Source: a virus | DNA length: 39,738 nucleotides | Direction: 5' to 3' (one strand) | IMG/VR virus record: IMGVR_UViG_3300047277_000115 | Location: 1 to 39,738 of that record | Shown here: one piece after another, positions 6,396-39,738 of the stretch | How the letters are laid out: each line of letters starts with the position of its first letter | Position numbering within the stretch: the stretch's first letter is position 1 | Notes under the pieces: generated by a model | Told to the model about the DNA's origin: nothing | Database searches by the model: none | The model's input: only the letters and a program-made list of their open reading frames with translations | Made by a program: the position numbers and the translations under genes

Positions 6396-6680
6396 CTAAT
6401 CTAAGGTACTAAGTTTATTAGAAAACTCAGCTTCTATTTGTTTTATTTCTGGCATGTTAGTTGCTGTAGTAATACTATCTTTAGTTTTATTACATAGGGT
6501 TCTAATCTGATTTATCCAAGCATACATAGATATACATTCAGAAGATGTTTGATCTTGAGATAGATTAAGTTGCTTATAAATAGGATACTTCGAGAGTATT
6601 TTATCACTTGCTTGTTTATTGACTTCAAGAATGAACTCTTGTTTTTGTATCTCAAGTGGTTTAGTTATTATAAAAGGCAT
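6396..6680 (-). CDS. Hypothetical tail-end protein, 94 aa (possible fiber assembly factor)
   Basis: The gene starts two bases after the preceding gene ends. The product has a helical layout with the phrases SKYPIYKQLNLSQDQ, MYAWINQIRTLCNK and a C-terminal acidic helix ending FSNKLSTLD. Small helical proteins with a K-Y-P-x-W/Y-K-Q-x-N-x motif just after a tail-tip gene often resemble tail fiber assembly chaperones. The similarity here is weak. Spacing and strand place it firmly in the tail block. Confidence 0.65.
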   Translation of the reverse strand: MPFIITKPLEIQKQEFILEVNKQASDKILSKYPIYKQLNLSQDQTSSECISMYAWINQIRTLCNKTKDSITTATNMPEIKQIEAEFSNKLSTLD

Positions 6681-22832: not shown

Positions 22833-23653
22833 TAGTATGTCTCCCCAAGTCTTTTAAAGGTTAATGGTTCAAAATCTGTATTCTCTACAAATTTCTTCTT
22901 TAATAGGTTAGATTCAGCAGATGTACCTGAACAACCAGTATTATAAGCAGTACAAGCAGTAGTTCCTGCCGATGTAGTAATAGTATCAACTGTAACATCT
23001 ACAGCCCATACTAAAGCATCTGCCCAGAATGAAGCTTCAGTATAAACAGATGCCTCAACATCACCAGAAGTAGCGTCTACGTCAAATGCTAATACACCAG
23101 CAATCTTATTAAATGCCGCATATTGTACAATAGCTACAGAACCTGCACCTGCACCAGTACCTGTAATAGCTACGTCAGTTGCAGAAGCTGCACCAGTTCC
23201 AGTAGCATCAAATCGTACTTTAGTAGGACTAGCTGATGTTGTACCGTATCCTGCAAGTGTACCAGAAAATACACCAATAGTAGCTACAGGATAACCTTTA
23301 GCTAAGATAATAGCATTAGCTTGCGCAGAAGTAGTACCAGATACTAGACCTGACCAAATATCTGCAAGTTGTGCCGCTGTTACAGAACTAGAACCTGCTG
23401 TAAATGTAAGACCTGCTAAGATTACAGTCTGTCCAGTAGTAATACCAGATGCAAAAGTAACTAAAGCAGATTCAACTAAACCACCATGAGCAATAACTTT
23501 ACCATTAACATCTGATTCAACAAAACTTAATGCTTTGATTACTTGACCAGATTTAACAGTAACAATCTTAGATGCTCTATCTCCTGCTCTAGCAAAGGTA
23601 GCTTTAGGAGTTTGGTCGGGATAAGTAATCCAACCACCGTTATTAGTAGCCAT
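22832..23653 (-). CDS. D: Head decoration protein D-like with inserted domain, 273 aa
   Basis: The ends of the protein match gpD: N-terminal KATFARAGDRASKIVTVKSG with VIKALSFVESDVNGKVIAHGG, and C-terminal NKIAGVLAFDVDATSGDVEA with YTEASFWADALVW. Between them (residues about 62-178) lies an extra Gly/Ala/Thr/Ser-rich beta domain including TTGQTVILAGLTFTAG and FSGTLAGYG, a module I associate with repeats in bacterial surface adhesins and some phage proteins. gpD trimers bind the capsid three-fold axes and stabilise packed heads; lambda gpD is only 110 aa, so this one should project an extra domain from the capsid surface. Confidence 0.85.
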   Translation of the reverse strand: MATNNGGWITYPDQTPKATFARAGDRASKIVTVKSGQVIKALSFVESDVNGKVIAHGGLVESALVTFASGITTGQTVILAGLTFTAGSSSVTAAQLADIWSGLVSGTTSAQANAIILAKGYPVATIGVFSGTLAGYGTTSASPTKVRFDATGTGAASATDVAITGTGAGAGSVAIVQYAAFNKIAGVLAFDVDATSGDVEASVYTEASFWADALVWAVDVTVDTITTSAGTTACTAYNTGCSGTSAESNLLKKKFVENTDFEPLTFKRLGETY

Positions 23654-24042
23654 TATTTAATTCCTGCGAATGGGTTAATATCTTTACCTACTAAATCTAA
23701 TGCTTTATCAAGAGTATCTGCAAAAGATTTAGTAGCGTTTGGTTTATCTAATGAGCCTAAAGCTTCAGTAGTATCTACATGTGTAGAATCTTGTAAAGCA
23801 CCTTTAATAACTTCAAAAGACATAAGCACAGTTTCAATATTAGCATCTTTATCAATAAAAGATGTAGCGGCTTCTTGTAGTTTGATATCTGAACCAAAGG
23901 CTTTTTGAGCTTTGATAATATCTAAGCATCGTTGTTTTTCAGCAATACGGGCAGTAGCGATAGAAAGAGTAATCTCTGACTTAGCTTTACCTAGTTCTTC
24001 TGTAAGGGCGATAATCTTCCCTTGAGCTTCTTCTAATGTCAT
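23653..24042 (-). CDS. Nested scaffold protein (Nu3-like), 129 aa
   Basis: An internal in-frame ATG (24040-24042) is preceded by AAAGGTACAATT, nearly the same leader (AAAGGTATAGTT) that precedes the full-length start, with the same spacing. The product MTLEEAQGKIIALTEELGKA continues as a helical acidic protein ending DINPFAGIK. This reproduces the lambda C/Nu3 arrangement, where scaffold is the C-terminal part of the protease made in larger amounts from its own start. Confidence 0.78.
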   Translation of the reverse strand: MTLEEAQGKIIALTEELGKAKSEITLSIATARIAEKQRCLDIIKAQKAFGSDIKLQEAATSFIDKDANIETVLMSFEVIKGALQDSTHVDTTEALGSLDKPNATKSFADTLDKALDLVGKDINPFAGIK

Positions 24043-24864
24043 AATTGTACCTTTAGGTAGTTGGGTGGATTTTATATTACTTTCTTCATTCCCAATAAAG
24101 GAATCTTGTTGCTCGGACTTAACCGATAGTGTAGGTGTTAATGGATTAGCTCCGAACAATACACATGAATTTTCTCTAATATCTACTTTAGGTATTAGAT
24201 AGAAGTATCCACGTTTATCTACAATGTCTTTATTAATAACTTTAGGGTAGTTAGCATCCCAGATAGCTTTCTCAACTTTATCTTGTTCATTTGAAGAGTT
24301 AATAGCTAATTTAAGTTCTGAGTAGCTCATACCAATACTATGTTGATTGATCTTACCATTACTATAGAACTTAAATACATCTTCATTATAGTCTTTACGT
24401 ACAGTAGACTGCATAATAAGTGCTGTAGTAGTTCCAGACTGGTCGAGACCTAGTTCTTTAAGAGATAGTACTTTTGTATATACTTTAGTAACATCACCTA
24501 CATGAGCTGTAGAACTCTGTCTATGGTCTGCTATATGTGGAATACTTGTACCACGAGTAGCTATACTTTCATCATAAGCTTTATCAGTGATAACATCCAT
24601 CTGAGAATCACAAAACCATGCTGTGTTACATACTATAGTGACATCAAGTGAGTTAGGATCACCTAGTGGGTCAGAAGGAGGGGTTTCTCCAGCATCTTTA
24701 GAACTTTCAGAACTTTCAGTTTTAACTTCTCTAGGTGTTACTACTACAGTAGATACTAAAGAGTCAGAAAACTTTAACCCTTCCTTTTTAGTCTGAAGTA
24801 GGATTTTTTTATTAGTTCTTAGATAGGTAAAGAGTTCTTCACCATGTAAATTATCTAAATTCAT
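23653..24864 (-). CDS. Prohead protease-scaffold fusion, 403 aa
   Basis: I start at ATG 24862-24864 (MNLDNLHGEELF), which has ribosome site AAAGGTA, instead of the longer frame from 24909. Residues about 75-250 form a HK97-type prohead protease domain with His114 (IADHRQSS) and Ser176 in INQHSIGMS. The C-terminal third (from residue about 275) is a helical, acidic scaffold-like region that is also made separately from an internal start. The protease should process scaffold and possibly portal during head maturation. The protease type is the HK97 (U35/S78) style, unlike the S49-type gpC of lambda, so the head module is mosaic. Confidence 0.85.
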   Translation of the reverse strand: MNLDNLHGEELFTYLRTNKKILLQTKKEGLKFSDSLVSTVVVTPREVKTESSESSKDAGETPPSDPLGDPNSLDVTIVCNTAWFCDSQMDVITDKAYDESIATRGTSIPHIADHRQSSTAHVGDVTKVYTKVLSLKELGLDQSGTTTALIMQSTVRKDYNEDVFKFYSNGKINQHSIGMSYSELKLAINSSNEQDKVEKAIWDANYPKVINKDIVDKRGYFYLIPKVDIRENSCVLFGANPLTPTLSVKSEQQDSFIGNEESNIKSTQLPKGTIMTLEEAQGKIIALTEELGKAKSEITLSIATARIAEKQRCLDIIKAQKAFGSDIKLQEAATSFIDKDANIETVLMSFEVIKGALQDSTHVDTTEALGSLDKPNATKSFADTLDKALDLVGKDINPFAGIK

Positions 24865-24956
24865 AACTATACCTTTGTTAATTGTTACGTGATTATCGCA
24901 TAAACACAATATAAAGTCAAATATATATATTATGTTTATGCAATTTATTTACTATA

Positions 24957-26432
24957 CTATGTACCTGTACTGTTACTATTAGCTTGATTATTATTAGCCT
25001 GAGACATACTAGATGAAACTGTACCAGTGTTTAGAAAGATACCATAGGCTTCTAATTTCTTAATCTCTTCACGATCAGCTATTATTTCTTCAGGAGATAG
25101 ATTACGTTCTGCTAGTACATTAGTGTATGTATCCATACCATTTTGTAAGGCAAGTAAGTCTGCTTGATTATCTTTTAAATCATCCATACCTCTCCAACGT
25201 GGTAGTTGAAAATAAGGCACAGCACTAGAACATTTAGAATTATAAACAACTGCAAGTGATTTAAATGCATCTGCTATAGGTTTTTCTCGCAAAGGTATAA
25301 ATATAAAGTTATGTAGATACTCTAGGCGATTACGTGACTGTATAGCCATACCTATAAGAGAACTATAGTTAAGTCCAGCAGTATCACCTGTAAGTTGATG
25401 ATATAAAGCATCTGCTACTGAAGCTACCTTACGTAATTCTGTTTCTATAAGTGTTCCAAAGTTAGCACCTATATCTGTGCCTTGAAACATCTTAGCTGTC
25501 TCACCTTTATTTAGATATAATACCTGTGATTCCTCTGCATTGGTCTTTAAGTGTAATTTAGGACTTTCAGGAGTACCTGTATCTTCTACTTTACCTATAG
25601 GTAGTAAACTAATAGCTCCTGCTGTTTGTTCTATCAAAACTGCTACACTCTGTGCGGCTTTCTGTTTACTCACTGTAGCCGTGATAAGATCATCTAGTTC
25701 ATAAAGTGTTAGTAAAACAGGGGCTAGTAGAGGAATACCTAACCATTGTCCAGCCTCATCTCGTATAAAAGTATGTATGATTTCCTCAGCAGGTACAGTT
25801 ATACGACCTAAAGGTTGATTAGATAGTAAAGTTGTCTCAAGCATACTCTTACGAAAATGATATTTAGTAGGTACTGAGTTAATAAAGGTCATACCATAAC
25901 GTACAGTTTCATTAGGATTATAATCTTCATTAGCTATAGAGTTATAAGTATTAGTATACATCACATCATGAAGGATTGATGGTATTAGCTGTAGTTTTAA
26001 TGGTATTATATTAGAATTACCATCACGTGTTATAAGTAGTCTGATATAGCTTGCACCTGTCTGGAATATAGAGGCGTTAGATATACCTTGTAAAGTTTTC
26101 ATATCACCATGACCATCAAACGATGGGTTAGCAGAGAATTCATCCCAATAGGTTTGCATTAACCTATGTGCTTTACCATTAGGGTATTTCCATACTACTT
26201 TAATATGCCCTGCGTTAGTAATCCAGTTAGTTAATGCTCGTTTACCATAACCATTGTTTCTACATATGTTACGTGAACGATTCTGAAGAAAACGTAGTTC
26301 TTTACCTGCTAGTACATCTGCTTCACCATCGAATAGATGTTTTATACCTGTTTTATAGTTTACAGCCGCTCCTTCAAATGCAGTAGGAAGTTTATTTATA
26401 TTAGACCAGATTGTCTCTGTCTCCGAAGCCAT
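24957..26432 (-). CDS. B: Portal protein, lambda gpB family, 491 aa
   Basis: The segment LRFLQNRSRNICRNNGYGKRALTNWITNAGH near the N-terminus is the conserved family signature. Later come EIIHTFIRDEAGQWLGIPLLAPVLLTLYELDD and DALYHQLTGDTAGLNYSSL, the latter matching the typical G-D-x-S-x-x-N-Y-S-S box of lambda-type portals. It forms the dodecameric ring through which DNA passes. Lambda gpB is 533 aa. It starts just before the gpW stop, in lambda gene order W-B-C. Confidence 0.93.
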   Translation of the reverse strand: MASETETIWSNINKLPTAFEGAAVNYKTGIKHLFDGEADVLAGKELRFLQNRSRNICRNNGYGKRALTNWITNAGHIKVVWKYPNGKAHRLMQTYWDEFSANPSFDGHGDMKTLQGISNASIFQTGASYIRLLITRDGNSNIIPLKLQLIPSILHDVMYTNTYNSIANEDYNPNETVRYGMTFINSVPTKYHFRKSMLETTLLSNQPLGRITVPAEEIIHTFIRDEAGQWLGIPLLAPVLLTLYELDDLITATVSKQKAAQSVAVLIEQTAGAISLLPIGKVEDTGTPESPKLHLKTNAEESQVLYLNKGETAKMFQGTDIGANFGTLIETELRKVASVADALYHQLTGDTAGLNYSSLIGMAIQSRNRLEYLHNFIFIPLREKPIADAFKSLAVVYNSKCSSAVPYFQLPRWRGMDDLKDNQADLLALQNGMDTYTNVLAERNLSPEEIIADREEIKKLEAYGIFLNTGTVSSSMSQANNNQANSNSTGT

Positions 26433-26433
26433 A

Positions 26434-26715
26434 TTATAAATCTCCTTTACATACTACAAGTGGGATACAAGCATTTTGTCTAAATAATGGTCTTATATTA
26501 GGCGTTAATGAATTGATTGTATCAAGAAGTTCTCTACGGTAACTTTTTAAATCTATAAGATTTACATCACCATAGCGGAATAGTCGTTGAAAGTTACCTG
26601 AACCTACACGAAGTTCTACTAAAGACTTACCTTGTATAAGAGTCTCTATAGCTATATTTACTTGTGTAAGTTGTCTTTGTGCTTCATCTAGTGAAATTCC
26701 AGCCATGCTAGTCAT
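26434..26715 (-). CDS. W: Head completion protein gpW-like, 93 aa
   Basis: The protein has the gpW/gp25-type connector pattern: an N-terminal helix with DEAQRQLTQVNIAIETLIQG, then the beta hairpin VELRVGSGNFQRLFRYGDVNLIDL and a second helix YRRELLDTINSL. Lambda gpW is 68 aa and stabilises packaged DNA below the portal. The C-terminus here is longer and contains two cysteines. The start at 26715 has an AAGGAA ribosome site. It directly precedes the portal gene. Confidence 0.85.
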   Translation of the reverse strand: MTSMAGISLDEAQRQLTQVNIAIETLIQGKSLVELRVGSGNFQRLFRYGDVNLIDLKSYRRELLDTINSLTPNIRPLFRQNACIPLVVCKGDL

Positions 26716-26739
26716 ATAAGTTCCTTAGTGTTATGTTAA

Positions 26740-27579
26740 TTATATAGCGCAACCACAACCACCTACATCAAATCTATCAGAGTCAGCTAAATCTTTTTCA
26801 AGATACTCTTCTCTGTAAGTTTTCATAGTTAGGTAATGTACTTTACCATCTATAGTTTTCTTTAAGAAGGGTAGTGTATTAACTTCTTTAGCTAATACCT
26901 GTTCCATATCTTCATGTTCTTTGTACCTTTCTGGTAGTTTTTCATATAGGTTTTTAAAATGTCCTAGACCAGCTTTAACACAGAAACCACCACAGTTATT
27001 GTGACCAAAACCTAAAGTATATAACCTAGGTCTAGCTATACCGAATTTTTCACTAAAGTCTTTAGGTACTATTTTACCCTCTTCAACAAGTGTACTACGG
27101 TATATCCAAGGATTCATATAAGATTGAACTCTTGTAAGTCGATGATGTTCTGAAAAGTCTATACCAAGATGTACTTCTGCGTTAAGATATGTTACATCTT
27201 TAAAACGTATATCTTCTCCATGTATATTTTTAATACCTAAAGATTCTTTAACTATGTAACCATAGTTTTTACCTATCCATCCATTAAGAAGGTCTCTTTT
27301 TAATATGCTAGAACATATATCTACCCTAGAGTTACCTACAAATCTACTATCCCTAAATAATTCCCACGGTGTTCTACCATCAGCTAAAGTAACTAACTCA
27401 CATCCTAGAAAGCCCACTACTTCATCTTTAAATCTATATAAATCCTCATCTTCCATCATAGTATCAGCAAAAAGTAGTAGTACATTCTCTTTACCATACT
27501 TTTCACAACAGCTTTTAGCTTCTGCAAAACTACCCATACCACCTGAAAAACTTACTATATGTTTAATTGCCTCAGTCAT
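26740..27579 (-). CDS. PP-loop ATPase / PAPS reductase-like (adenine nucleotide alpha hydrolase fold), 279 aa
   Basis: The N-terminus has a PP-loop, SFSGGMGSFAEAK (residues 10-22), then LLFADTMMEDEDLYRF, LADGRTPWELFRD and SRVDICSSILKR. Further on come GFGHNNCGGFCVKAGLGHF with Cys196 and Cys200, and a C-terminal GGCGC (Cys275, Cys277). This matches an uncharacterised PP-loop family related to CysH and DndC that occurs in phages and mobile elements. Such enzymes adenylate a substrate and often move sulfur or nitrogen to it. The substrate is unknown. Its start overlaps the terminase stop by 8 bases, so it is expressed within the packaging module, between large terminase and gpW. Confidence 0.85.
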   Translation of the reverse strand: MTEAIKHIVSFSGGMGSFAEAKSCCEKYGKENVLLLFADTMMEDEDLYRFKDEVVGFLGCELVTLADGRTPWELFRDSRFVGNSRVDICSSILKRDLLNGWIGKNYGYIVKESLGIKNIHGEDIRFKDVTYLNAEVHLGIDFSEHHRLTRVQSYMNPWIYRSTLVEEGKIVPKDFSEKFGIARPRLYTLGFGHNNCGGFCVKAGLGHFKNLYEKLPERYKEHEDMEQVLAKEVNTLPFLKKTIDGKVHYLTMKTYREEYLEKDLADSDRFDVGGCGCAI

Positions 27580-29656
27580 AAAAATACTTCTCTTGTGCCG
27601 ACCAATAGTCGTTAGTTAGTCCACGTATACCTACAGCGTATGAAGCATGTAAGGCGTTCTTTTCAGCATCTATAGCTTCTTTTCGTTTACCTGATATAAG
27701 TTTAAAAACACTTTTCGAGTAACTAGAGTTAATATCAATAATCTTTCTACATGATGTCATTTGTTCCTCATACTGACCATAACTTTGTTCATTATGAAAG
27801 TACATATTACTTCTGGCATCTTTATTCTTGTTAAGCATCACTCTGCGTAGTATTTCTTCATGCGCTCTATGTGCGCCTATATAGTATAATGGAACACCCA
27901 TCTTCTCAGCAAGTGACTTTCTTAAATTATTATCAGTAAGGTTTATATCATTACTACTAGGTTCACGATAGATTTCATCTGTACTAAAGCGTAAGTCTCT
28001 AGTACCTTTAGTAGCAAATATAAATCTACCCTTATCACGTAGTTTATCTGCCGCCGCTATAACAAACTTATATACAAGTTCTGTATTATCCCCAGAATCT
28101 ATAGATATAGCAGATATCTGCATAGACTTACCTGAAGCATGAGCTATGCTACCTGTTACTACACTATCCATAAGCTCTTTCCATATACCAGTAAACTCTC
28201 CTTTATCATCTAACTCTTGTACAGTTACATCACCAAAGATTTCTCTCCACGACACTAACCAAGAGTTATTATTCCTACCCCATGCACGAATAACGATAGC
28301 AAATCTATTATCTTGTACATCTATACCACATGTAAGTACTAGACCTTCCATAGGACATATACCTTCAGCATAATTCTTACGTAAAGTCTTCATCTCTTCA
28401 GCTTCTAAGGCTGTTATACCTGATACATAAGGCAGACCAAGAGAGTTATTATACCAATCTTTAGCTAGTGTCTCATCACCTTTTTCTAAAGCTATTTCAG
28501 CTAGTATCTTCTTAACTGCTAATGCTTTAGCATCTGAAGTAGCTTCAAAACATGCTAATATCTCAGGATGTTGAAAGCTATATACTAAAGATGTCTTATT
28601 ATTACGTAAGCTTCGTTTGAGATTGATCTTATCTATAGTAGGTTCAATAAGTTTATACTCTTCTATAGTAATAACTTCTCTTTCTTCTTTTCTAGGATGC
28701 CAACCGTATGAAAAATCCCCACAATCATCTATGAACCCAAAGTCTAACCCTTTGTTTATATTAACAGTTTTCTGTTCAAATGTCCATTCTTCTTTACAAG
28801 CTATACAAACAAATATAGCACTATCAGGGTCATGTTTGCCATAAGTCTCGTCTATAGCACGATCAGGGAATTCACTATATACTATAAATGTTTCCATAGT
28901 CCAACCAGAAAGTTCTACTAATGTCTCACAGTGATGACAATGTGCTTTATATATAAGTTGAAACCCTCTGTTGTATAGCTTCTCCATATTACATATATCT
29001 TTAAACGTAGGTGTAGAGAAACCAAGTACCTTCTTTCTACCTATAGTGAAAGATTTTTGTCTGCCTATAACTAATCCTAATGGGTCACCTTGTTTAGCTA
29101 CATCAGATTTAACCTGAGCAAACTCTTCTAGGATACAAAATGGTATGGGTGATGATAGTACAGATTGTATAGAACCTAGAGTTTTCAATGCTACACTACC
29201 ACCTGGGAATGTAAAATAGTCATGACTAGGTTTAGTGATACCGATATTAAGCTTATCCTTAAGTACCTTAGTACTGTTAAAGAAAGGTTGAAAACGCTTA
29301 CGAGAAAACTCTTTAAGTAGAGATACTCCGGGGAAGAATACTATAGTATGACATGGATCAAGGTCTTGCTTTCTACCTATGATATTATTCTCTAACTCAC
29401 TAGCACCTATCTGAGATGATTTCATCATACCTACTATATGTATAAACCAATTATCTGATACATGATAGATATATTTAAACGCAGGTGTACGAGAACAGTT
29501 AAACTTTCCACGTATAGCTGACTCATCTGATGCTAAAGTTCTTTCAGATTCAGTCCATTCTATTGTAGATAACCTACTAGCTCTTCTAAATAGTTTAAGT
29601 AAGTTTCCGAACAACACTCTTTCGGATATATTACTATAAGTTTTAATTATTTCCAT
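27572..29656 (-). CDS. A: Terminase large subunit, lambda gpA family, 694 aa
   Basis: Family landmarks are in order: the deviant Walker A MMKSSQIGASE (residues 77-87), Walker B CILEEFA (174-180), coupling motif GFSTPTFKD (212-220), two CxxC pairs forming a likely zinc ribbon (Cys240/243 and Cys284/287), and the nuclease motif CGIDVQDNRFAIVIRAWG with Asp446. The enzyme pumps DNA into the prohead and cuts concatemers. The gpA family is mostly associated with cos-type packaging, but I cannot locate a cos site. Length 694 is near lambda gpA (641). Confidence 0.95.
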   Translation of the reverse strand: MEIIKTYSNISERVLFGNLLKLFRRASRLSTIEWTESERTLASDESAIRGKFNCSRTPAFKYIYHVSDNWFIHIVGMMKSSQIGASELENNIIGRKQDLDPCHTIVFFPGVSLLKEFSRKRFQPFFNSTKVLKDKLNIGITKPSHDYFTFPGGSVALKTLGSIQSVLSSPIPFCILEEFAQVKSDVAKQGDPLGLVIGRQKSFTIGRKKVLGFSTPTFKDICNMEKLYNRGFQLIYKAHCHHCETLVELSGWTMETFIVYSEFPDRAIDETYGKHDPDSAIFVCIACKEEWTFEQKTVNINKGLDFGFIDDCGDFSYGWHPRKEEREVITIEEYKLIEPTIDKINLKRSLRNNKTSLVYSFQHPEILACFEATSDAKALAVKKILAEIALEKGDETLAKDWYNNSLGLPYVSGITALEAEEMKTLRKNYAEGICPMEGLVLTCGIDVQDNRFAIVIRAWGRNNNSWLVSWREIFGDVTVQELDDKGEFTGIWKELMDSVVTGSIAHASGKSMQISAISIDSGDNTELVYKFVIAAADKLRDKGRFIFATKGTRDLRFSTDEIYREPSSNDINLTDNNLRKSLAEKMGVPLYYIGAHRAHEEILRRVMLNKNKDARSNMYFHNEQSYGQYEEQMTSCRKIIDINSSYSKSVFKLISGKRKEAIDAEKNALHASYAVGIRGLTNDYWSAQEKYFYD

Positions 29657-30302
29657 CTACTATCTCCTGTAGACTTATATCTAACATAGCTTGTACATAC
29701 TCTGCCCTATCTATCTTAGCTTCTTCTATCATACGTATACCAAGATTATATAAGTTATCCATACCCTCATCTATCGTATCTTGAGATTCTGGAAAATCAA
29801 TAGCAATTCCAAGCAATAAGTCTCGTATTTGATATATAAAAGGTTGTATAAGTTCTAATTTATCTGTAAAGTTGACATATTCTTCGTTCTTTATAGCTAT
29901 CTTTTGCCATAGTTCTACTTCTCTAGCATGTTCTGTTCGTACAGATTGTTCTAACTTAGCCGCCATTAGAGGATGCATTGTATCTTCTAACCCTTCAGAA
30001 TCGCTAAAGTTAAACTTACGTGAGGAACTCTTTTTAGCTTCCTTAGCCTTAGCCTCTTCCTGAGCTTTAAATAGTTTAACTTCCTCATTCTTTAGTAATG
30101 AAGTTACTAGATGGTCAATACATTCTATATAAGTAAATGAACTTGCCCTTATATCGGGTAATCTACCCATAGTCCCCCATTGGTATACTAAAGAAACATT
30201 ACGGTTAAGCAAACTGGCTAATATGGCTGGCGATACTTTATCTCTTGGATTTATAAAGATAACATTAGTATCAACCTTAGTTTCGGGAGTTATATTTTCC
30301 AT
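29643..30302 (-). CDS. Terminase small subunit, 219 aa
   Basis: This is the first gene of the leftward late operon, overlapping the large terminase start by 14 bases. Residues about 20-60 (VSPAILASLLNRNVSLVYQW then GRLPDIRASSFTYIECIDHL) form a Nu1-like winged helix-turn-helix for DNA recognition. A charged linker (KAQEEAKAKEAKKSSSRKFN) and a C-terminal helical region for assembly with the large subunit follow. Lambda Nu1 is 181 aa. It should bind the packaging site, which is usually close to or inside this gene. Confidence 0.82.
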   Translation of the reverse strand: MENITPETKVDTNVIFINPRDKVSPAILASLLNRNVSLVYQWGTMGRLPDIRASSFTYIECIDHLVTSLLKNEEVKLFKAQEEAKAKEAKKSSSRKFNFSDSEGLEDTMHPLMAAKLEQSVRTEHAREVELWQKIAIKNEEYVNFTDKLELIQPFIYQIRDLLLGIAIDFPESQDTIDEGMDNLYNLGIRMIEEAKIDRAEYVQAMLDISLQEIVDGNN

Positions 30303-30387
30303 AAGTAGTTGATTTATTAGGGTTTATGAATAGGTTTAGTTAAAATCCTAGTTGATTTATATATTAAAACGTGTTACTATATTAATG

Positions 30388-30416
30388 ATTATAACATTTA
30401 TCCTAACTAGAGGCAA
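30388..30416 (-). promoter_or_regulatory. Putative promoter of the leftward late operon
   Basis: On the minus strand a perfect TATAAT lies at 30388-30393, with a weak TTGCCT -35 (30411-30416) 17 bases upstream. It would start transcription toward the terminase genes. The divergent region 30303-30415 must also hold a rightward promoter for the fiber operon, but no clear pair of boxes is visible there. Confidence 0.45.
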
Positions 30417-30619
30417 TGACTATGGATGAACTACATGCTAAAGATATACGTATAACAGTAATAGATGACTCTGAAAGTATAACATTAGAAGAGTTACAAG
30501 AGATTAAAAAGTTAGTATCTTTATCTAAAGCTACTAAAATTATTGCAGGAATTGCTTTTGGTATTGTAGGGTTATTAGGCTTACCTACAGTACTTTCTTG
30601 GGTTTCTAAACAACTTTAA
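30416..30619 (+). CDS. Small membrane protein at the head of the fiber operon, 67 aa
   Basis: The ATG at 30416 has a purine-rich leader (CTAGAGGCA). A second in-frame ATG is two codons later. The N-terminal half is acidic and helical (DDSESITLEELQEIKKLVSL) and is followed by a single membrane segment, residues about 43-62 (IAGIAFGIVGLLGLPTVLSW). Similar tiny coiled-coil-plus-TM proteins accompany fiber or lysis genes in many phages. It could be a second holin-like protein or a membrane adaptor; the sequence does not decide. Confidence 0.65.
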   Translation: MTMDELHAKDIRITVIDDSESITLEELQEIKKLVSLSKATKIIAGIAFGIVGLLGLPTVLSWVSKQL

Positions 30620-30639
30620 CTATCTTTAAGGATACTATA

Positions 30640-31068
30640 ATGGCTTCTACCAATTTTACCAATCTTACACGTGCTTTAGTTCAAGGTAACTTAAACTTTG
30701 GGTCTAATACTTTTAAAGTATTACTTGTATCAGCCGCTCCTACAGAAGCTCAATTAGATACTTGGGCTAATAGATCAGATATCACTACTGAAATCACTGG
30801 TACTGGATATACTGCTGGCGGTTTAGCACAAGGATTTACATTAGATGCTATTGATACAGCTAATAATCGTCAAAGTATCACATGGTCTAATATTATCAAT
30901 GGCTGGACAGGTGCTACCTTTAGTGCTTTCGGTGCAATTATTTATAAGAACTCAGGTACTTCTAGTACTGATACACTTTTACATTATATTGACTTTAGTG
31001 CTTTAGTAGCTTGTACTAATGGTACGTTCAGTATCTCATACTCTACACCTTTATATATTAACCGATAG
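30640..31068 (+). CDS. Putative virion structural / fiber-associated protein, 142 aa
   Basis: The protein is beta-rich and starts MASTNFTNLTRALVQGNLNF followed by FKVLLVSAAPTEAQL, with EITGTGYTAGG and a central SITWSNIINGW. This matches a widespread small family of phage virion proteins with the order F-K-V-x-L-x-x-x-A-P, G-x-G-Y-T-A-G-G, then a W in a Ser/Thr-rich context. Such proteins decorate the virion or attach fibers. Its stop is eight bases before the large fiber gene, with which it is probably co-expressed. Confidence 0.75.
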   Translation: MASTNFTNLTRALVQGNLNFGSNTFKVLLVSAAPTEAQLDTWANRSDITTEITGTGYTAGGLAQGFTLDAIDTANNRQSITWSNIINGWTGATFSAFGAIIYKNSGTSSTDTLLHYIDFSALVACTNGTFSISYSTPLYINR

Positions 31069-31076
31069 GTATTAAT

Positions 31077-33122
31077 ATGTCTTTAATAACAGCAGATAGG
31101 GTTAAGGAGACTACTACAGTTGTAGGTACAGGTACTATTACCTTGCTTGGAGCATCTACTGGTTTTCAATCTTTTGCGGCTATAGGTAATGGTAATACTT
31201 GTTACTATGCTATTGCTTCCGTAGATGGTACTTATTGGGAAACAGGTATTGGTACATATACTCTTAGCGGAACTACCTTAGCTAGAACTACAGTATTAGC
31301 ATCATCTAACGCAGGAGCATTAGTTAATTTTATTGCAGGTATTAAAGAGGTATTTGTTACATATCCTGCGAGTAAAAGTGTATTTACTGATAGTATTGGT
31401 TGTATTAATACAGTAGGAAGTAGTCCCTATCCTACAATAAGACCGAGTCTTAATTTAGACTTTGCAAACAGTAAACAGTTAGACCCTAGAGTTACTTTTA
31501 GTAGGTTGTCTACAGCAACATATTATGACGGACAGACAACGGCTAAGGCTGAAGAGAATTTACTTAAAGGTTCTAATGATTTTGGTAATAGTACTTATTG
31601 GACACCTACTAATGCATCAACACCAGTAACGGGTATAACTGCTCCAGATGGTACATCAACTGCTTATATTTTTGCTGCTACAGCGGCTAATGCTACGCTA
31701 TATCAAACATTAACTACAGGTGCTTTACCTTATACACTTACCCTTTATATCCAGCGTGTAACAGGAACAGGTACAGTTAATTTAACGCTAGATGGTACTA
31801 CGCTAACACCGCAAACTACAACGGCTTCATGGGTTAGGTATTCTTTACCTAATGTAACACCTACAGCGGCATCTCATACTATTGGTTTACAGCTTGCGGT
31901 ATCGGGTGATGTGGTAAATATATGGGGCGCACAGCTAGAACAACGCTCCTCAGCTACAGCTTATACACCTACAACTACAGCACCGATAACTAACTACATA
32001 CCACAGTTAATGACTGCACCTGCTGGTATAGCTAGGTTTGACCATGAACCCTTGACGGGTAAGAGTTTGGGGTTGTTGATTGAGGAGGGGAGGAGTAATT
32101 TACTGACTAATTCATTAGGGTATTCAACTCCTACCAACACAACTAAGATTTCAAACTGTGTAATTGCTCTAGATGGTTCGCAAACAGCTTCGTTATACGT
32201 TACAGATACCAATTTGTCTGGTCATTTTGTTGCGTCATATGCATCGGTATCATCAGGTGTTGCTAATACTTCTTTTACATATTCGACCTATATAAGCAAT
32301 AAAGGTATTACAGCCTGTCAGATATGGCTTTATGCTAATAGCAACACTGGCGACAGAGTAATAGCAAGTTTTGACGTATCATTAGTTGATCCGCGCGTCA
32401 GCATTACATCAACTAATACAGTAACCGTACCAACTGCAAATATTAATTATACAAGCACACCCGTAGGAAATGGTTGGTTTAGATTAACAGTAACAGGGAT
32501 GTTTACTGCTGTACCTATATCTATAGGATTTACACAAACTATAGGCAACACAAGTGGAGCAATAGGTAATAATTATGCAGGGGCTATTCTATGGGGCGCA
32601 CAACTCGAAGCAGGTTCATTCGCTACAAGTTATATACCTACTACCACAGCCGCAGTAACTAGATCAGCAGATCAAGCTAGTATGACGGGGGTGAACTTTA
32701 GTAGTTGGTATAATCAGGCGCAGGGGAGTTTTTACTTAGATTTTGAAGTAGCTAGACAAGCGGTAGGTGCTGAATTTCTATTATATTGTGCTAATAACAT
32801 TAGACTTTTATATATTGGTGGTAGTAGTACTAATTTAGTTATGTATGACGGGGTAACTCCTTATTATGCTACAAGTGTACAAAATAATTTATCTTATGGT
32901 GCTGGGGTATTTCACAAAACTATGTCAGCGTATACTACAACAACAAACACACTAGTTACTGATTCTAGTAGTCCATTTACAGCCTCTTTTATATCTGCCT
33001 CTCAAGCAACAGGTATTTATATAAATAGTGTATCTGGTGGTTATTTTAACGGTCACATCCGCAAACTCTCCTACTACCCCAAAGCCCTTTCTACTACTGA
33101 ACTACAGGCATTGACCTCATGA
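31077..33122 (+). CDS. Tail fiber / receptor-binding protein with duplicated jelly-roll domains, 681 aa
   Basis: The N-terminal domain (residues 1-100, TLLGASTGFQSFAAIGNGNT and YYAIASVDGTYWETGIGTY) is a common fiber attachment module. Then comes LDFANSKQLDPRVTFSRLST, two similar beta-sandwich domains each ending in WGAQLE (near residues 282 and 508), separated by the conserved TGKSLGLLIEEGRSNLL, and a C-terminal lectin-like domain starting SMTGVNFSSWYNQAQGSFYL. The repeated domains look like carbohydrate-binding jelly rolls. The conserved connecting segments use a different base composition from the flanking domains, a sign of module exchange. The stop overlaps the next start as ATGA. Confidence 0.82.
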   Translation: MSLITADRVKETTTVVGTGTITLLGASTGFQSFAAIGNGNTCYYAIASVDGTYWETGIGTYTLSGTTLARTTVLASSNAGALVNFIAGIKEVFVTYPASKSVFTDSIGCINTVGSSPYPTIRPSLNLDFANSKQLDPRVTFSRLSTATYYDGQTTAKAEENLLKGSNDFGNSTYWTPTNASTPVTGITAPDGTSTAYIFAATAANATLYQTLTTGALPYTLTLYIQRVTGTGTVNLTLDGTTLTPQTTTASWVRYSLPNVTPTAASHTIGLQLAVSGDVVNIWGAQLEQRSSATAYTPTTTAPITNYIPQLMTAPAGIARFDHEPLTGKSLGLLIEEGRSNLLTNSLGYSTPTNTTKISNCVIALDGSQTASLYVTDTNLSGHFVASYASVSSGVANTSFTYSTYISNKGITACQIWLYANSNTGDRVIASFDVSLVDPRVSITSTNTVTVPTANINYTSTPVGNGWFRLTVTGMFTAVPISIGFTQTIGNTSGAIGNNYAGAILWGAQLEAGSFATSYIPTTTAAVTRSADQASMTGVNFSSWYNQAQGSFYLDFEVARQAVGAEFLLYCANNIRLLYIGGSSTNLVMYDGVTPYYATSVQNNLSYGAGVFHKTMSAYTTTTNTLVTDSSSPFTASFISASQATGIYINSVSGGYFNGHIRKLSYYPKALSTTELQALTS

Positions 33123-35143: not shown

Positions 35144-35234
35144 GGGAGAGCCACGAACAACATCAAAAACCCCTCCCCTCCCTCCTCACCCCTCCAACAC
35201 AACCCCATACTTCTTCAGCTGTACATTCTCCTTC
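35144..35234 (-). repeat. 91-bp inverted repeat, right copy (end of rep)
   Basis: This is the exact reverse complement of 1-91. It covers the last 15 codons and stop of rep and the convergent intergenic region with the fiber operon. On the plus strand it is strikingly C-rich (35170-35192), and G-rich bases just outside it (35138-35146) can pair with it to form a long stem that might act as a bidirectional terminator. Confidence 0.97.
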
Positions 35235-36007
35235 CTCAGCTGTTTTATCACCGTATCCTTCTCATTCTCAGCTTCAACCAACTTTTTACTGACTATCTCA
35301 TAAGGTATGATTATACTAATAGCTTTCCTACCATTCTTCTTACCTATAACTATAGTCTTATGATCTAATAGTATTAAACCTTTCTTAGTCAGTTCCTCCA
35401 TAGCAGGTTTCAACACACCACGTTTGAACTCTTTATACTCTCTATAACTAGAACCTACGTTCCATGAGTCATATAGGTAGACCAAATCAAACTCTTTCTT
35501 CCCGTGCAACCCTTTAAACCTCTCTTGGAATATTAAATCGTATAGTCTACTAGCGTATGTACCATCTATCCTAAGTACATCCATTATATAAAGCCTAGTA
35601 AAGTTACTTTTAATCTCAGAGATATAGGGTAAGATATTTGTACTCCACATAAGTTGTACAGTTTGTGTACCAGCGTCTACTTCTATAGCTTGTATCCAAC
35701 GAAAGTCAGTTCTCTTCTTACCTTCGATCTCTGTGATACTACGGGAGTATAGTTTACTAGCCGCTTCACGTAGGTCTTGATAAGCATAGTGTCTACTAAC
35801 ATTACATAAGTCAGCATATTCATTTACATTCATAGAATACCATTCAGTAGATGATAACTCTTTAGTGCTGTTAAGTCGGGATAAAGTTAATAATATTATA
35901 CGTTTCTCTATAGTGGTCAGAGAGTAGCAGGAATTAAGAAGTTTATTAGATAGGCTAGCATGTGAGTTGGGTATTGTTAAGGTAGATATTGTAGTTATAG
36001 CTTTCAT
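35186..36007 (-). CDS. rep: Plasmid replication initiator, Rep_3 superfamily, 273 aa
   Basis: The N-terminal region SLTTIEKRIILLTLSRLNST is the typical start of Rep_3/RepB winged-helix initiators. It is followed by VNEYADLCNVSRHYAYQDLR (first HTH), the LYSRSI segment, IQAIEVDAG, LPYISEIKSNFTRLYIMDVL and the second winged-helix domain with RLYDLIFQE and EFKRGVLKPAMEEL. The C-terminus is a short coiled coil (ENEKDTVIKQLRKENVQLKK). Iteron-like repeats and a consensus promoter lie directly upstream. Length 273 is normal. This makes the element a replicating plasmid. Its final 15 codons recur at the left edge of the window. Confidence 0.92.
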   Translation of the reverse strand: MKAITTISTLTIPNSHASLSNKLLNSCYSLTTIEKRIILLTLSRLNSTKELSSTEWYSMNVNEYADLCNVSRHYAYQDLREAASKLYSRSITEIEGKKRTDFRWIQAIEVDAGTQTVQLMWSTNILPYISEIKSNFTRLYIMDVLRIDGTYASRLYDLIFQERFKGLHGKKEFDLVYLYDSWNVGSSYREYKEFKRGVLKPAMEELTKKGLILLDHKTIVIGKKNGRKAISIIIPYEIVSKKLVEAENEKDTVIKQLRKENVQLKKYGVVLEG

Positions 36008-36039: not shown

Positions 36040-36068
36040 ATTATACACCTTTTTGGCTAATTTGTCAA
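36040..36068 (-). promoter_or_regulatory. rep promoter, perfect sigma70 consensus
   Basis: On the minus strand TTGACA (36063-36068) and TATAAT (36040-36045) are separated by exactly 17 bases, a complete consensus match and the strongest promoter visible in the window. The 3' boxes lie 33 bases before the rep ATG. The iterons end about 30 bases upstream, so Rep binding could repress its own promoter. Confidence 0.85.
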
Positions 36069-36096: not shown

Positions 36097-36136
36097 GGGT
36101 AAACATACACCTTATGGCGGGTAAACATACACCTTA
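36097..36136. repeat. Two 18-bp iterons of the plasmid origin
   Basis: GGGTAAACATACACCTTA occurs at 36097-36114 and 36119-36136, exactly 22 bases apart, about two helical turns, so both copies face the same side of the DNA. Two identical direct repeats upstream of a Rep_3 initiator gene are the normal layout of an iteron-type origin. Two copies is few; degenerate extra copies may exist. Confidence 0.75.
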
Positions 36137-36462
36137 AAACCCCTCAGCCCGCGTATTCCGTGACCTCCAGACCCCTCTAACTATAACTAGCAAATCAAAA
36201 TCAAAATCAAAAGCAAATGTGTATAGTGGGTTATACTAGCTCGCCATACTCTATAACTCTAAACTCTACTATATTATATACAAATAAACAAGTTTCACTA
36301 ACGAAACGAAGTAGGGAAGAGGCTTGCCTTGAACCTACTAGATTGAGTTCCCGACCGACAACTTACACATGTAGCATATAGCTCATCAGGCTCAGTATGC
36401 TAATCGTATATATAGCTCAATAGCATATATAGGCTCATCATGCTCATCCTACTCATAGGCTA

Positions 36463-36493
36463 ACCGTATGGACTCTTGCTACATACGTAGTGA
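36463..36493 (+). repeat. GGACTCTTG-hairpin unit 1
   Basis: ACCGTATGGACTCTTG (36463-36478) is followed by CTAC ATAC GTAG (479-490). With flanking TTG and TGA, the stem can be extended to seven pairs including two G-U wobbles. Confidence 0.6.
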
Positions 36494-36520
36494 TATAACC
36501 ATGTGTAACCGTCTTTGCAT

Positions 36521-36555
36521 ATACTATACTATACTATACTATACTATACTATACT
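36521..36555 (+). repeat. Tandem ATACT, seven copies
   Basis: Seven exact pentamer copies in a row. Pentamer tracts change length easily by slippage. In this context they are part of the repeat-rich gene-free region. Confidence 0.95.
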
Positions 36556-36594
36556 ATATCCTGTCCTGCCCTGTCCTATCAACACTGTGCAACA

Positions 36595-36622
36595 CGTATG
36601 GACTCTTGTCTGTGCCAGACGA
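36595..36622 (+). repeat. GGACTCTTG-hairpin unit 2
   Basis: CGTATGGACTCTTG (36595-36608) leads into a perfect stem GTCTG/CAGAC (36608-36612, 36616-36620) with loop TGC. The stem can be extended by U-G and U-A pairs. Confidence 0.6.
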
Positions 36623-36677
36623 TGTGGGCTATATATATAGCATAGCTCACAGTATAACCATCATATATCATATAACC

Positions 36678-36704
36678 GTGTAACCTGTGTAACCTGTGTA
36701 ACCC
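36678..36704 (+). repeat. Tandem GTGTAACCT, three copies of a 9-mer
   Basis: Two exact units and a third with one change (GTGTAACCC). The 9-base period equals that of the AAACCGTAT array at the right end, and related words (AACCGTGTAACC, TAACCGTAT) occur nearby. Confidence 0.85.
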
Positions 36705-36744
36705 TATCGCCCTGCATATCACCGTATCACCGTGTAACCGTATA

Positions 36745-36773
36745 ACCGTATGGACTCTTGTTAGCTAGCTAAC
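36745..36773 (+). repeat. GGACTCTTG-hairpin unit 3
   Basis: ACCGTATGGACTCTTG (36745-36760) leads into a stem GTTAG/CTAAC (36760-36764, 36769-36773) with loop CTAG. The first 16 bases are identical to unit 1. Confidence 0.6.
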
Positions 36774-36918
36774 CGTATCGCTATATCATCACCGTAGTAT
36801 ATATATACCATCACCTCTTGCTATACACACAGTGATACAGTGATACTATAACCTATATATCATCATCATCGCCCTGACCATAGTCTTTATATATATATAT
36901 ATCGCATCGCATCGCCCA

Positions 36919-36946
36919 ATGGACTCTTAGCTATCATCACCGTAGC
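36919..36946 (+). repeat. GGACTCTTG-hairpin unit 4 (variant)
   Basis: ATGGACTCTT (36919-36928) is followed by AG and then a short stem GCTA/TAGC (36930-36933, 36943-36946) with a nine-base loop that overlaps a copy of the ATCATCACCGTAG repeat. Confidence 0.45.
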
Positions 36947-37020
36947 GTAGCATATCATCACCGTAGGGGACTATCGTATGTACCATACCGTGCAACCATA
37001 TACTGTTACACTATCAACAT

Positions 37021-37150
37021 CGGCGACTTAGGTATCTCCGGCGACTTGTACTATATATAACATATATAACATCGGCGACTTGTACCATCATCATATAACA
37101 TATATATATATCCTCGGCGACTTGTACACTGTATCATCACTGGCGACTTA
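37021..37150 (+). repeat. CGGCGACTT repeat cluster, five copies
   Basis: CGGCGACTT starts at 37021, 37039, 37073 and 37115, and GGCGACTT at 37142 (preceded by T). Copies 2-4 share the longer CGGCGACTTGTAC. They are separated by TA-rich spacers of variable length (9 to 33 bases). A degraded copy may lie at 37382. Confidence 0.8.
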
Positions 37151-37217
37151 GCTATTCTTATATATATACTGTATACTCTCCGCACATAGTATCCCATCCC
37201 ACTCCCACCATATAGTA

Positions 37218-37239
37218 TACTCTTGTTAGCTGAACTAAC
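37218..37239 (+). repeat. GGACTCTTG-hairpin unit 5 (variant)
   Basis: TACTCTTG (37218-37225) leads into GTTAG/CTAAC (37225-37229, 37235-37239) with loop CTGAA. The stem sequence equals that of unit 3 but the loop differs. Confidence 0.45.
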
Positions 37240-37514
37240 TGTATACACCTATACCATCTATATGCAGAACATGTTGATCCGCGTTCCCGCTCAAATAGAA
37301 TATAGCATATTTACGTAGTATTTTTAATAAAATCCGCCCTTATATACTTTATATAGCTTTACTTTAACTAGTAGACTACTATGGCGACCTATAGTATTTA
37401 CACAGTGTAACTGTTTTGGGAAAATTTAGTGTATATAGATATAGGCTCTGTTACTCACACGCATATAGCTACAACCCTACCTAGTACCTTTCTAACTACC
37501 TACCTTATATATAC

Positions 37515-37548
37515 GTTCCCATACCGCCGGTAAAAGTAGTATGGGAAC
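37515..37548 (-). terminator. Hairpin after the last gene of the right-end operon
   Basis: GTTCCCATAC (37515-37524) and GTATGGGAAC (37539-37548) form a perfect 10-bp stem with a 14-base loop, nine bases beyond the stop of the 37558-37791 gene. No T-run follows, so it may act as an RNA 3' stabiliser or a Rho-independent terminator of weak type. Confidence 0.55.
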
Positions 37549-37557
37549 TTTCAAGGT

Positions 37558-37791
37558 TTACTTTAGTCTTAGTTCCAGACGGGTCATAGTTGTCATCGGC
37601 TCGATGATGAGTTCATATTGCGGGTAGATTAGATCTACCAGACGTTCTAATATCTGTATTCGATTGTCGGTTATACTATCTCCATGTATACCTATTACCC
37701 ATACCACTCCGAGTATGGGTAATACTCTAGTAGGGGTTAAGAGGCAAGCTGTACATAGGTCAGCTAATGTTATATTCATGTTCATGTTCAT
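37558..37791 (-). CDS. Hypothetical protein, 77 aa
   Basis: A GGAG ribosome site lies eight bases before the ATG; the first codons repeat ATGAAC three times (MNMNMN), offering several starts. The middle is hydrophobic (ACLLTPTRVLPILGVVWVIGI) and could be a membrane segment or a buried strand pair. The C-terminal part is a helical, Arg/Glu-rich segment. It is the fourth and last gene of the right-end operon, preceded by the same hairpin element as its two upstream neighbours. No family recognised. Confidence 0.6.
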   Translation of the reverse strand: MNMNMNITLADLCTACLLTPTRVLPILGVVWVIGIHGDSITDNRIQILERLVDLIYPQYELIIEPMTTMTRLELRLK

Positions 37792-37823: not shown

Positions 37824-37850
37824 GATTAGCTTATACTATATAAGCTGATC
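37824..37850 (-). promoter_or_regulatory. Intergenic hairpin element H1
   Basis: Arms GATTAGCTTATA and TATAAGCTGATC pair over 12 positions (one G-U in RNA) around a three-base loop. On the minus strand it is followed by a T-rich stretch and the TTTTTGGAG ribosome site of the 77-aa gene. It is one of three copies in this operon. Confidence 0.7.
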
Positions 37851-37865
37851 ACATTATACTATATG

Positions 37866-38171: not shown

Positions 38172-38196
38172 ATCAGCTTATGTTATATAAGCTGAT
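38172..38196 (-). promoter_or_regulatory. Intergenic hairpin element H2
   Basis: Arms ATCAGCTTAT (38172-38181) and ATAAGCTGAT (38187-38196) form a perfect 10-bp stem with a five-base loop. On the minus strand the order is stop codon, hairpin, C8, T7, GGAG, ATG. It could be a partial terminator or a leader stem controlling translation. Confidence 0.72.
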
Positions 38197-38213
38197 TAAG
38201 GTTCACTATAACT

Positions 38214-38495: not shown

Positions 38496-38522
38496 ATCAG
38501 CTTATATAAAGTATAAGCTGAT
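38496..38522 (-). promoter_or_regulatory. Intergenic hairpin element H3
   Basis: Arms ATCAGCTTATA (38496-38506) and TATAAGCTGAT (38512-38522) form a perfect 11-bp stem with a five-base loop. On the minus strand it is followed by AACCATTTTTT and the GGAG site of the 86-aa gene. The hairpin followed by six T residues is a canonical terminator shape. Confidence 0.75.
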
Positions 38523-38545: not shown

Positions 38546-39265
38546 TCATTCGCTATCTGATTTAAAAATCACTTGATACACATTATCACTTATAAGTTTA
38601 GTTCCTGACAGCTGATAACCTATCGAACTCAATAGTCCTAGACTGGATAGACTAGATAAGTCTAGGTTACCCACATATTGACCTTTGCCAGTAGGCAATA
38701 TGTCAGTAAAACCATTGTCCGTTAAAGTCTGGAACTTTATTGCAGACTCGATTTCATCTATTTCTTTAATTCTAAATACTTTATAGCTGTCAGCAGGTAC
38801 AAAGCAATCAACTATCTGCTTAAGTAGATCGGTAAGTTCCGCTTTAGTGGTTTTATCAGTAATGGCATAATACGACATAACTATATCACTTATAGCAACC
38901 TGATTTTTATTATCTAATCCTAATTTTATTAAATTATTAAGATATTGCTCACTAGTGATATTAGCTTTCGTCGTTATTAAAGCTTCACCCTTACCAGATA
39001 CTTTACTGCCTGTTTCGTGTTGATCTAAATGATTTTTAGATAGATAACCATCAGCTATGCTTGTGTCAAAAGACACTGGTGTTCCTATGCTTTTCATTTC
39101 AGCGATTGCGGTAAGAAGACTTAAACTTACTGCTTTGCCATGCAAGTAACCATCTTGTACGTGTTCCCATGTTTCGGGAGTCTTACCTGTAGCACCTTGA
39201 CCGGATACCCAATCAAGTAATAAAGATTTTGCAGACAGAGTATTTACATTGTTATTTATAGCCAT
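38546..39265 (-). CDS. Hypothetical protein, 239 aa, first gene of the right-end operon
   Basis: A GGAG site lies about eight bases before the ATG. The 239-aa protein is soluble and alpha/beta, with the phrases LLDWVSGQGATGKTPETWEH, HLDQHETGSKVSGKGEALIT, a long helix (TTKAELTDLLKQIVDCFVPA) and a C-terminal NLDLSSLSSLGLLSSIGYQL. The GATGKT stretch only superficially resembles a Walker A loop. I recognise no family. It is expressed from the operator-rich region to its right, with the duplicated genes following on the same strand. Confidence 0.72.
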   Translation of the reverse strand: MAINNNVNTLSAKSLLLDWVSGQGATGKTPETWEHVQDGYLHGKAVSLSLLTAIAEMKSIGTPVSFDTSIADGYLSKNHLDQHETGSKVSGKGEALITTKANITSEQYLNNLIKLGLDNKNQVAISDIVMSYYAITDKTTKAELTDLLKQIVDCFVPADSYKVFRIKEIDEIESAIKFQTLTDNGFTDILPTGKGQYVGNLDLSSLSSLGLLSSIGYQLSGTKLISDNVYQVIFKSDSE

Positions 39266-39298: not shown

Positions 39299-39301
39299 TT
39301 T

Positions 39302-39365
39302 GATACATTATTGTATCTATGAGTATACGATATACATACATATACTCATAGATACAGACTGTATC
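39302..39365. promoter_or_regulatory. GATACA/TGTATC operator array with a large dyad
   Basis: Four half-sites form two inverted pairs: GATACA-N5-TGTATC at 39302-39318 and GATACA-N3-TGTATC at 39351-39365. The inner halves lie on a 16-bp perfect inverted repeat (39312-39327 and 39341-39356, 13-base spacer). This looks like paired dimer sites able to loop the DNA, upstream of the right-end operon. The regulator is unknown. Confidence 0.6.
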
Positions 39366-39474
39366 AGGTTCAAGTTGTTAAAGAGCGGTGGTGCAGGGCT
39401 ATTAGACTATATTACGATACCTATGTCAAATTTTATTTTTATTTATTTTAGTAGATGATAGTTGTATCCCTGCA

Positions 39475-39611: not shown

Positions 39612-39651
39612 AGTCCATCAGTCCATCAGTCCATCAGTCCATCAGTCCATC
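39612..39651 (+). repeat. Tandem AGTCCATC, five exact copies
   Basis: Five perfect 8-base units in a row, immediately followed by the 9-base array. Exact identity suggests recent expansion or active maintenance. Confidence 0.97.
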
Positions 39652-39652
39652 A

Positions 39653-39697
39653 AAACCGTATAAACCGTATAAACCGTATAAACCGTATAAACCGTAT
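39653..39697 (+). repeat. Tandem AAACCGTAT, five exact copies, ending in a dyad
   Basis: Five perfect 9-base units are followed by AAACGGTT, which makes the final AACCGT-ATAA-ACGGTT a hairpin dyad (39690-39705). The core ACCGTAT is also scattered in the gene-free region next to rep (36464, 36721, 36738, 36746, 36772), so one protein may bind both regions. It resembles an iteron or centromere array. Confidence 0.95.
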
Positions 39698-39738
39698 AAA
39701 CGGTTAAATGACTGAGATATATACGTTAGCACATGATT

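Follow-up and report, generated by a model that had tools for sequence, protein, structure and literature searches.

Does a short box that recurs in a gene-free tract of a phage genome, followed time and again by a hairpin whose arms vary while their pairing is kept, reflect selection on a folded single strand, or did the pattern come about in another way? The tract belongs to an IMG/VR phage record of 39,738 bases, all of which was analyzed and is referred to below as the window, and which carries terminase and portal genes of lambda type. The original prediction had described five motif sites with five differing paired hairpins beside a plasmid origin, and had read the conserved motif and compensated stems as a sign of selection on RNA or single-stranded DNA structure. 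We examined the setting of these sites, their association with hairpins, and their distribution among relatives.

The gene-free setting next to a plasmid origin was borne out, as the following features are found close by:

35186..36007, minus strand: Rep_3 family replication initiator, 273 aa (Pfam Rep3_N 2.3e-29, Rep3_C 5.4e-10)
36040..36068, minus strand: rep promoter, perfect sigma-70 type, TTGACA-17-TATAAT (promoter scan)
36097..36136, plus strand: two iterons GGGTAAACATACACCTTA, starting at 36097 and 36119, identical 18-mers 22 bp apart
36140..37300, no strand: origin flank of 1.2 kb, gene-free and repeat-saturated, holding all units (AA/TT observed/expected 0.26-0.3 at its core)
37022..37149, plus strand: second dispersed word GGCGACTT, five copies (37022, 37040, 37074, 37116 and 37142; word scan)

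Both Rep3_N and Rep3_C exceed the Pfam cut-off, and the iterons, which lie about 90 bp upstream of rep, provide the direct-repeat feature of a Rep_3 iteron-type plasmid origin. Gene, promoter and iterons together mark the record as a candidate phage-plasmid, and the sequence supports the view that the array adjoins a putative iteron-type plasmid origin. An exact 91-bp inverted repeat (1-91 versus 35144-35234) relates the record start to the 3' end of rep and the sequence downstream of it; it could be the boundary of an invertible segment or an assembly fold-back. Beside its copy at the record start, a 97-aa ORF (210-503) matches Rep3_C, the second winged helix of Rep_3 initiators, and is possibly a partial Rep paralogue.

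The flank is unusual in composition. Its cryptic simplicity reaches z = 22, against 1-4 in twelve 1160-nt samples from the first 36 kb, and between 36370 and 37260 the observed/expected ratios show strong depletion of AA (0.32) and TT (0.23) and an excess of TA (1.84). Tandem repeats of TATAC (7.8 copies), TAACCTGTG (3.6 copies) and TATAACCG (4.4 copies) are accompanied by many further dispersed words in three to five copies each. The two ORFs of at least 60 aa inside the flank (36468-36683 and 37051-37248) both cross repeats and look spurious, which leaves the flank apparently gene-free. Every listed ORF between 37.2 kb and the end of the record is on the minus strand, the next plus-strand gene lying across the record end; no plus-strand gene is found within 2.4 kb downstream of the array, and the promoter scan gave no plus-strand promoter-like site shortly upstream of it. 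No defence families were found near the flank. An interpretation as DNA of low stability (DUE) was rejected, the least stable DNA being outside the flank. Small ORFs beginning ATGGACTCT differ in length and lack a Shine-Dalgarno sequence by eye.

Further repeats occur between the flank and the record end. Two long inverted repeats (37516-37550 and 37693-37724) have CCCATAC/GTATGGG in common, with outer arms that are different yet compensated. Three similar palindromes (ATCAGCTTAT...ATAAGCTGAT; 37825-37851, 38172-38198 and 38496-38522) each have a small minus-strand ORF immediately downstream, the last palindrome being terminator-like, with T-rich sequence and GGAG coming next; a duplicated stretch of DNA, about 71% identical, overlaps ORFs 37866 and 38214. 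A long imperfect palindrome (TATCTATGAGTATA...TATACTCATAGATA; 39301-39366) is located upstream of ORF 38546-39265, and tandem AGTCCATC (5.1 copies) and AAACCGTAT (5.4 copies) are found near the record end (39612-39708), where the word ACCGTAT is common with the flank.

The sequence CTCTT(A/G) occurs at six sites on the plus strand of the flank: three exact copies of CGTATGGACTCTTG and one each of ATGGACTCTTA, ATACTCTTG and CACCTCTTG. The box of a unit is ACTCTTG, often CGTATGGACTCTTG, and its last three bases open a short stem-loop. The units, with pair probabilities from RNA folding prediction in a 120-nt context, are:

36470..36493, plus strand: unit 1, GGACTCTTG, stem TTGCTAC/GTAGTGA, loop ATAC, seven pairs (two G-U), pair probability 0.86
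36600..36622, plus strand: unit 2, GGACTCTTG, stem TTGTCTG/CAGACGA, loop TGC, seven pairs (one G-U), pair probability 0.92
36752..36775, plus strand: unit 3, GGACTCTTG, stem GTTAG/CTAAC, loop CTAG, pair probability 0.67
36812..36835, plus strand: unit 3b, CACCTCTTG, unit 1 paralogue with one broken pair (A-C), unformed in the 120-nt fold
36921..36946, plus strand: unit 4, GGACTCTTA, GCTA/TAGC with a 9-nt loop, outside the common geometry, pair probability 0.48
37217..37241, plus strand: unit 5, ATACTCTTG (without GGA), stem GTTAG/CTAAC, loop CTGAA, within GTATAC/GTATAC, pair probability 0.86

All five sites described before were recovered, the motif being exact at 36470, 36600 and 36752 and variant at 36921 and 37217, and a sixth copy at 36812 had been missed. 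Every hairpin arm named earlier is present in the sequence, including the pairing of TTG with TGA in unit 1 and with CGA in unit 2. Units 1, 2 and 3 have unrelated arms; unit 4 pairs only with its long loop, and unit 5 repeats the arms of unit 3, the two being probable copies, so that there are four different hairpins rather than five. Unit 3b is 83% identical to unit 1 over 23 nt and, with one A-C break and one compensated pair, keeps six of seven pairs if G-U is counted. Units 1 and 3b probably derive one from the other by copying, as do the pair with GTTAG/CTAAC arms, and within each pair the units are not independent. In four units the named pair is predicted at a probability of 0.67-0.92; the stems are nevertheless short (4-7 bp) and weak, and folding energies over 36 nt are ordinary in four of six units. 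Spacings are irregular (130, 152, 60, 109 and 296 nt).

To quantify the association, sites were picked by CTCTTR alone and scored in a fixed geometry, a 7-bp stem starting at TTR with a loop of 3-5. The six flank sites score 12, 13, 10, 9, 2 and 10, the 2 being unit 4; five of them form a stem from the TTG of the motif with a loop of 3-5 and six or seven of seven pairs. Other CTCTTR sites in the window have a mean score of 3.7 (at least 9 in two of 48), and on other contigs five of 69 GGACTCTTR sites reach at least 9. In a look-elsewhere test, 58 repeated words of the flank competed at 51 offsets (up to 25 nt either way) on two strands against 3000 nulls taken from the initial 35 kb of the window, in which such stems are as dense as in the flank. 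The top association was ACTCTTG on the plus strand (z 5.34), a level that none of the 3000 nulls matched (largest 4.6). The motif-hairpin pattern is therefore genuine and exceeds chance after look-elsewhere correction. The minus-strand value for ACTCTTG is lower (z 3.58), and the plus strand is favoured because departures from Watson-Crick pairing at the stem base mostly become G-U in that reading.

Covariation points in the same direction, being 0.63 over the six copies versus 0.34 +/- 0.06 in shuffled and 0.1-0.2 in slid controls, as measured among paralogous copies within one genome. When the six units are aligned with MAFFT, 83% of cells pair, and five of seven pairs are changed on both sides. 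The first part of the original argument, a conserved motif with compensated stems, is thus upheld; selection on RNA or single-stranded DNA is plausible and stops short of being established, because the copies are paralogues of one genome, relatives either stop short of the region or lack the motif, stem energies are mostly ordinary, the promoter scan gave no plus-strand site shortly upstream, and slippage and copying in the flank are heavy.

The array is known from this genome alone: searches of phages, plasmids, IMG/VR and genomes found no homologous array. DNA similarity searches with the region against phages and plasmids, both strict and at E 10, gave short chance matches only; the Rep protein and ORF 38546 yielded no relatives in IMG/VR, and terminase and Rep queries no close relatives among genome contigs. 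In IMG/VR the motif pair matched 13 loci, which among the matches listed look like repeats in coding-like DNA, none being flank-like, and CGTATGGACTCTTG matched 72 loci in single copy, none relatable to the flank by shared words. Scans for the iteron and for the GGCGACTT pair led to no recognised relative, the 33 GGCGACTT loci not being inspected singly. A covariance model of the units (R1), as proposed with the original prediction, recovers its six source units; all further matches are weak, the best having E 0.036 in the window (at 6624) and 0.42 in relatives. Rfam returned nothing at gathering score, sub-threshold matches being mostly miRNA families at other places.

The close fragments are L076, L091 and L092. 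The terminase of L076 is 94% identical, and as its alignment is restricted to 22957-31561 it misses the array region; L091 and L092, with a capsid protein 92% identical, are shorter than 6 kb and contain neither a Rep gene nor the motif. L093 (record G004; capsid protein 76% identical) has a Rep_3 gene and, about 110 bp upstream, a pair of 18-bp direct repeats (21 bp apart); like the window, it has its lowest AA/TT (of 19 kb read) just past these repeats. The motif is absent from L093 despite this layout, so that the two have the origin layout in common but not the motif array. The same Rep_3/iteron layout, with a milder AA/TT dip beside the Rep_3 origin, is seen in a relative, L104.

What, then, produced the units? 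The repeat saturation and AA/TT depletion of the flank make slippage and template switching a serious rival to selection, and a mutational origin, a close second among the readings, is quite possible. In this reading the flank would be noncoding DNA that changes fast: next to the origin, slippage together with template switching over short ranges would have spread copies of words such as TAACCGTAT, ATCACCGTA, GTGTAACC, GGCGACTT and CGTATGGACTCTTG, and quasi-palindrome template switches would have made or perfected the hairpins, single events yielding arms that appear compensated. Template switching is a documented non-selective source of compensated RNA stems, and RNA hairpins can arise and become fixed through it (PMC8794818). 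The extreme cryptic simplicity, the tandem repeats and the many words in several copies agree with such an origin, as does the position of the 3' arms of units 3 and 4 within the common words CTAACCGTAT and CACCGTAGC, respectively. However, the process should also hit other words, and none of the other repeated flank words exceeds chance for hairpins; GGCGACTT, for one, has no adjoining 4-bp stem on its 3' side at the offsets tested. Nor is hairpin density raised, a stem of at least 4 bp occurring at the same offset at 10.5% of flank positions versus 11.1% elsewhere. Moreover, copying takes arms along, whereas units 1, 2 and 3 have unrelated arms beside an identical 14-nt box, and template switching gives Watson-Crick pairs, not G-U. 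Those same unrelated arms, which supply most of the signal, together with the null test, speak against chance, that is, short stems that are easily found and a pattern picked by its reader. We consider chance quite improbable, even though the P value for all four GGACTCTT sites having a stem rises from 4e-5 to 0.006 as the stem definition is loosened, and the GGACTCTT family, which includes unit 4 and leaves out unit 5, attains only z 4.0 (global P 0.06).

Direct-repeat arrays are common near the origins of iteron plasmids, and the box might likewise be a double-stranded site, CGTATGGACTCTTG being bound by a partition, copy-number or regulatory protein whether or not the dyads matter as DNA. 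The three exact copies of the 14-nt box fit this possibility, and so do CGTATGG, found on the plus strand of the window at units 1-3 only, and a pair of long palindromes (around 37519-37544 and 37699-37718) in which GTATGG recurs. Yet CGTATGG is missing from units 3b and 5, ParA/ParB are absent among the scanned ORFs, and hairpins with unrelated arms and a plus-strand preference would be left unexplained, so that we regard protein binding to duplex DNA as unlikely. Least probable of all is nut-like antitermination on a plus-strand transcript. The boxA core consensus includes CTCTT and, as in the boxA-boxB of lambda-type nut sites, a linear box with this sequence precedes a hairpin on one strand. 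In contrast to nut sites, the units have no spacer, the stem beginning inside the box; their loops (ATAC, TGC, CTAG and CTGAA) are not of one class; no plus-strand operon follows; and six copies would be unusual.

Comparison with other known systems likewise sets the units apart. In Cluster K mycobacteriophages the SAS box GGGATAGGAGCCC precedes gene starts genome-wide and ESAS inverted repeats have a consensus sequence (PMC3203893), whereas the units differ in sequence, have free arms and are confined to one gene-free tract; they do not belong to SAS/ESAS. TIGR arrays, known from phages among others, resemble the units in having variable, consistently palindromic stems beside short conserved boxes, but their units are in tandem, carry box C/D and go with a protein bearing a Nop domain (PMC12045711). 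TIGR/Tas identity was rejected, since the units are irregular, 60-296 nt apart, and the Nop domain of Tas (PF01798) has no match in the record (G000), which may be incomplete. Rep_3 iteron plasmid origins match the setting, with initiator, promoter and paired iterons just upstream of the units; the units themselves lie past the iterons and are unlike them.

We tentatively favour, at somewhat less than even confidence, cis-acting box-plus-hairpin elements whose working form is a folded single strand, most probably of RNA. All copies are on one strand, beside the Rep_3 gene, its promoter and the iterons. The plus strand, as nascent RNA or, with less likelihood, as DNA that is single-stranded when the origin fires, would display the box at the base of a hairpin. 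A protein of the phage or of its host may recognise the box together with the fact that a stem follows; by ignoring stem sequence, it would leave the arms free to drift while still pairing. With several copies occupancy would be higher, which might serve to control either the activity of the origin or what becomes of a transcript from its region. That the units represent a new class of origin-linked, shape-read RNA or single-stranded DNA signals, a linear box plus any stem, controlling plasmid-type phage replication is a more doubtful proposition. Should the units be under selection, they would be a case, within one genome and beside the plasmid-type origin of a phage, in which it is conserved that a stem exists but not what its sequence is. 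If they are not, a slippage-prone tract would yield paralogous hairpins that mimic covariation, a warning for covariation-based RNA discovery.
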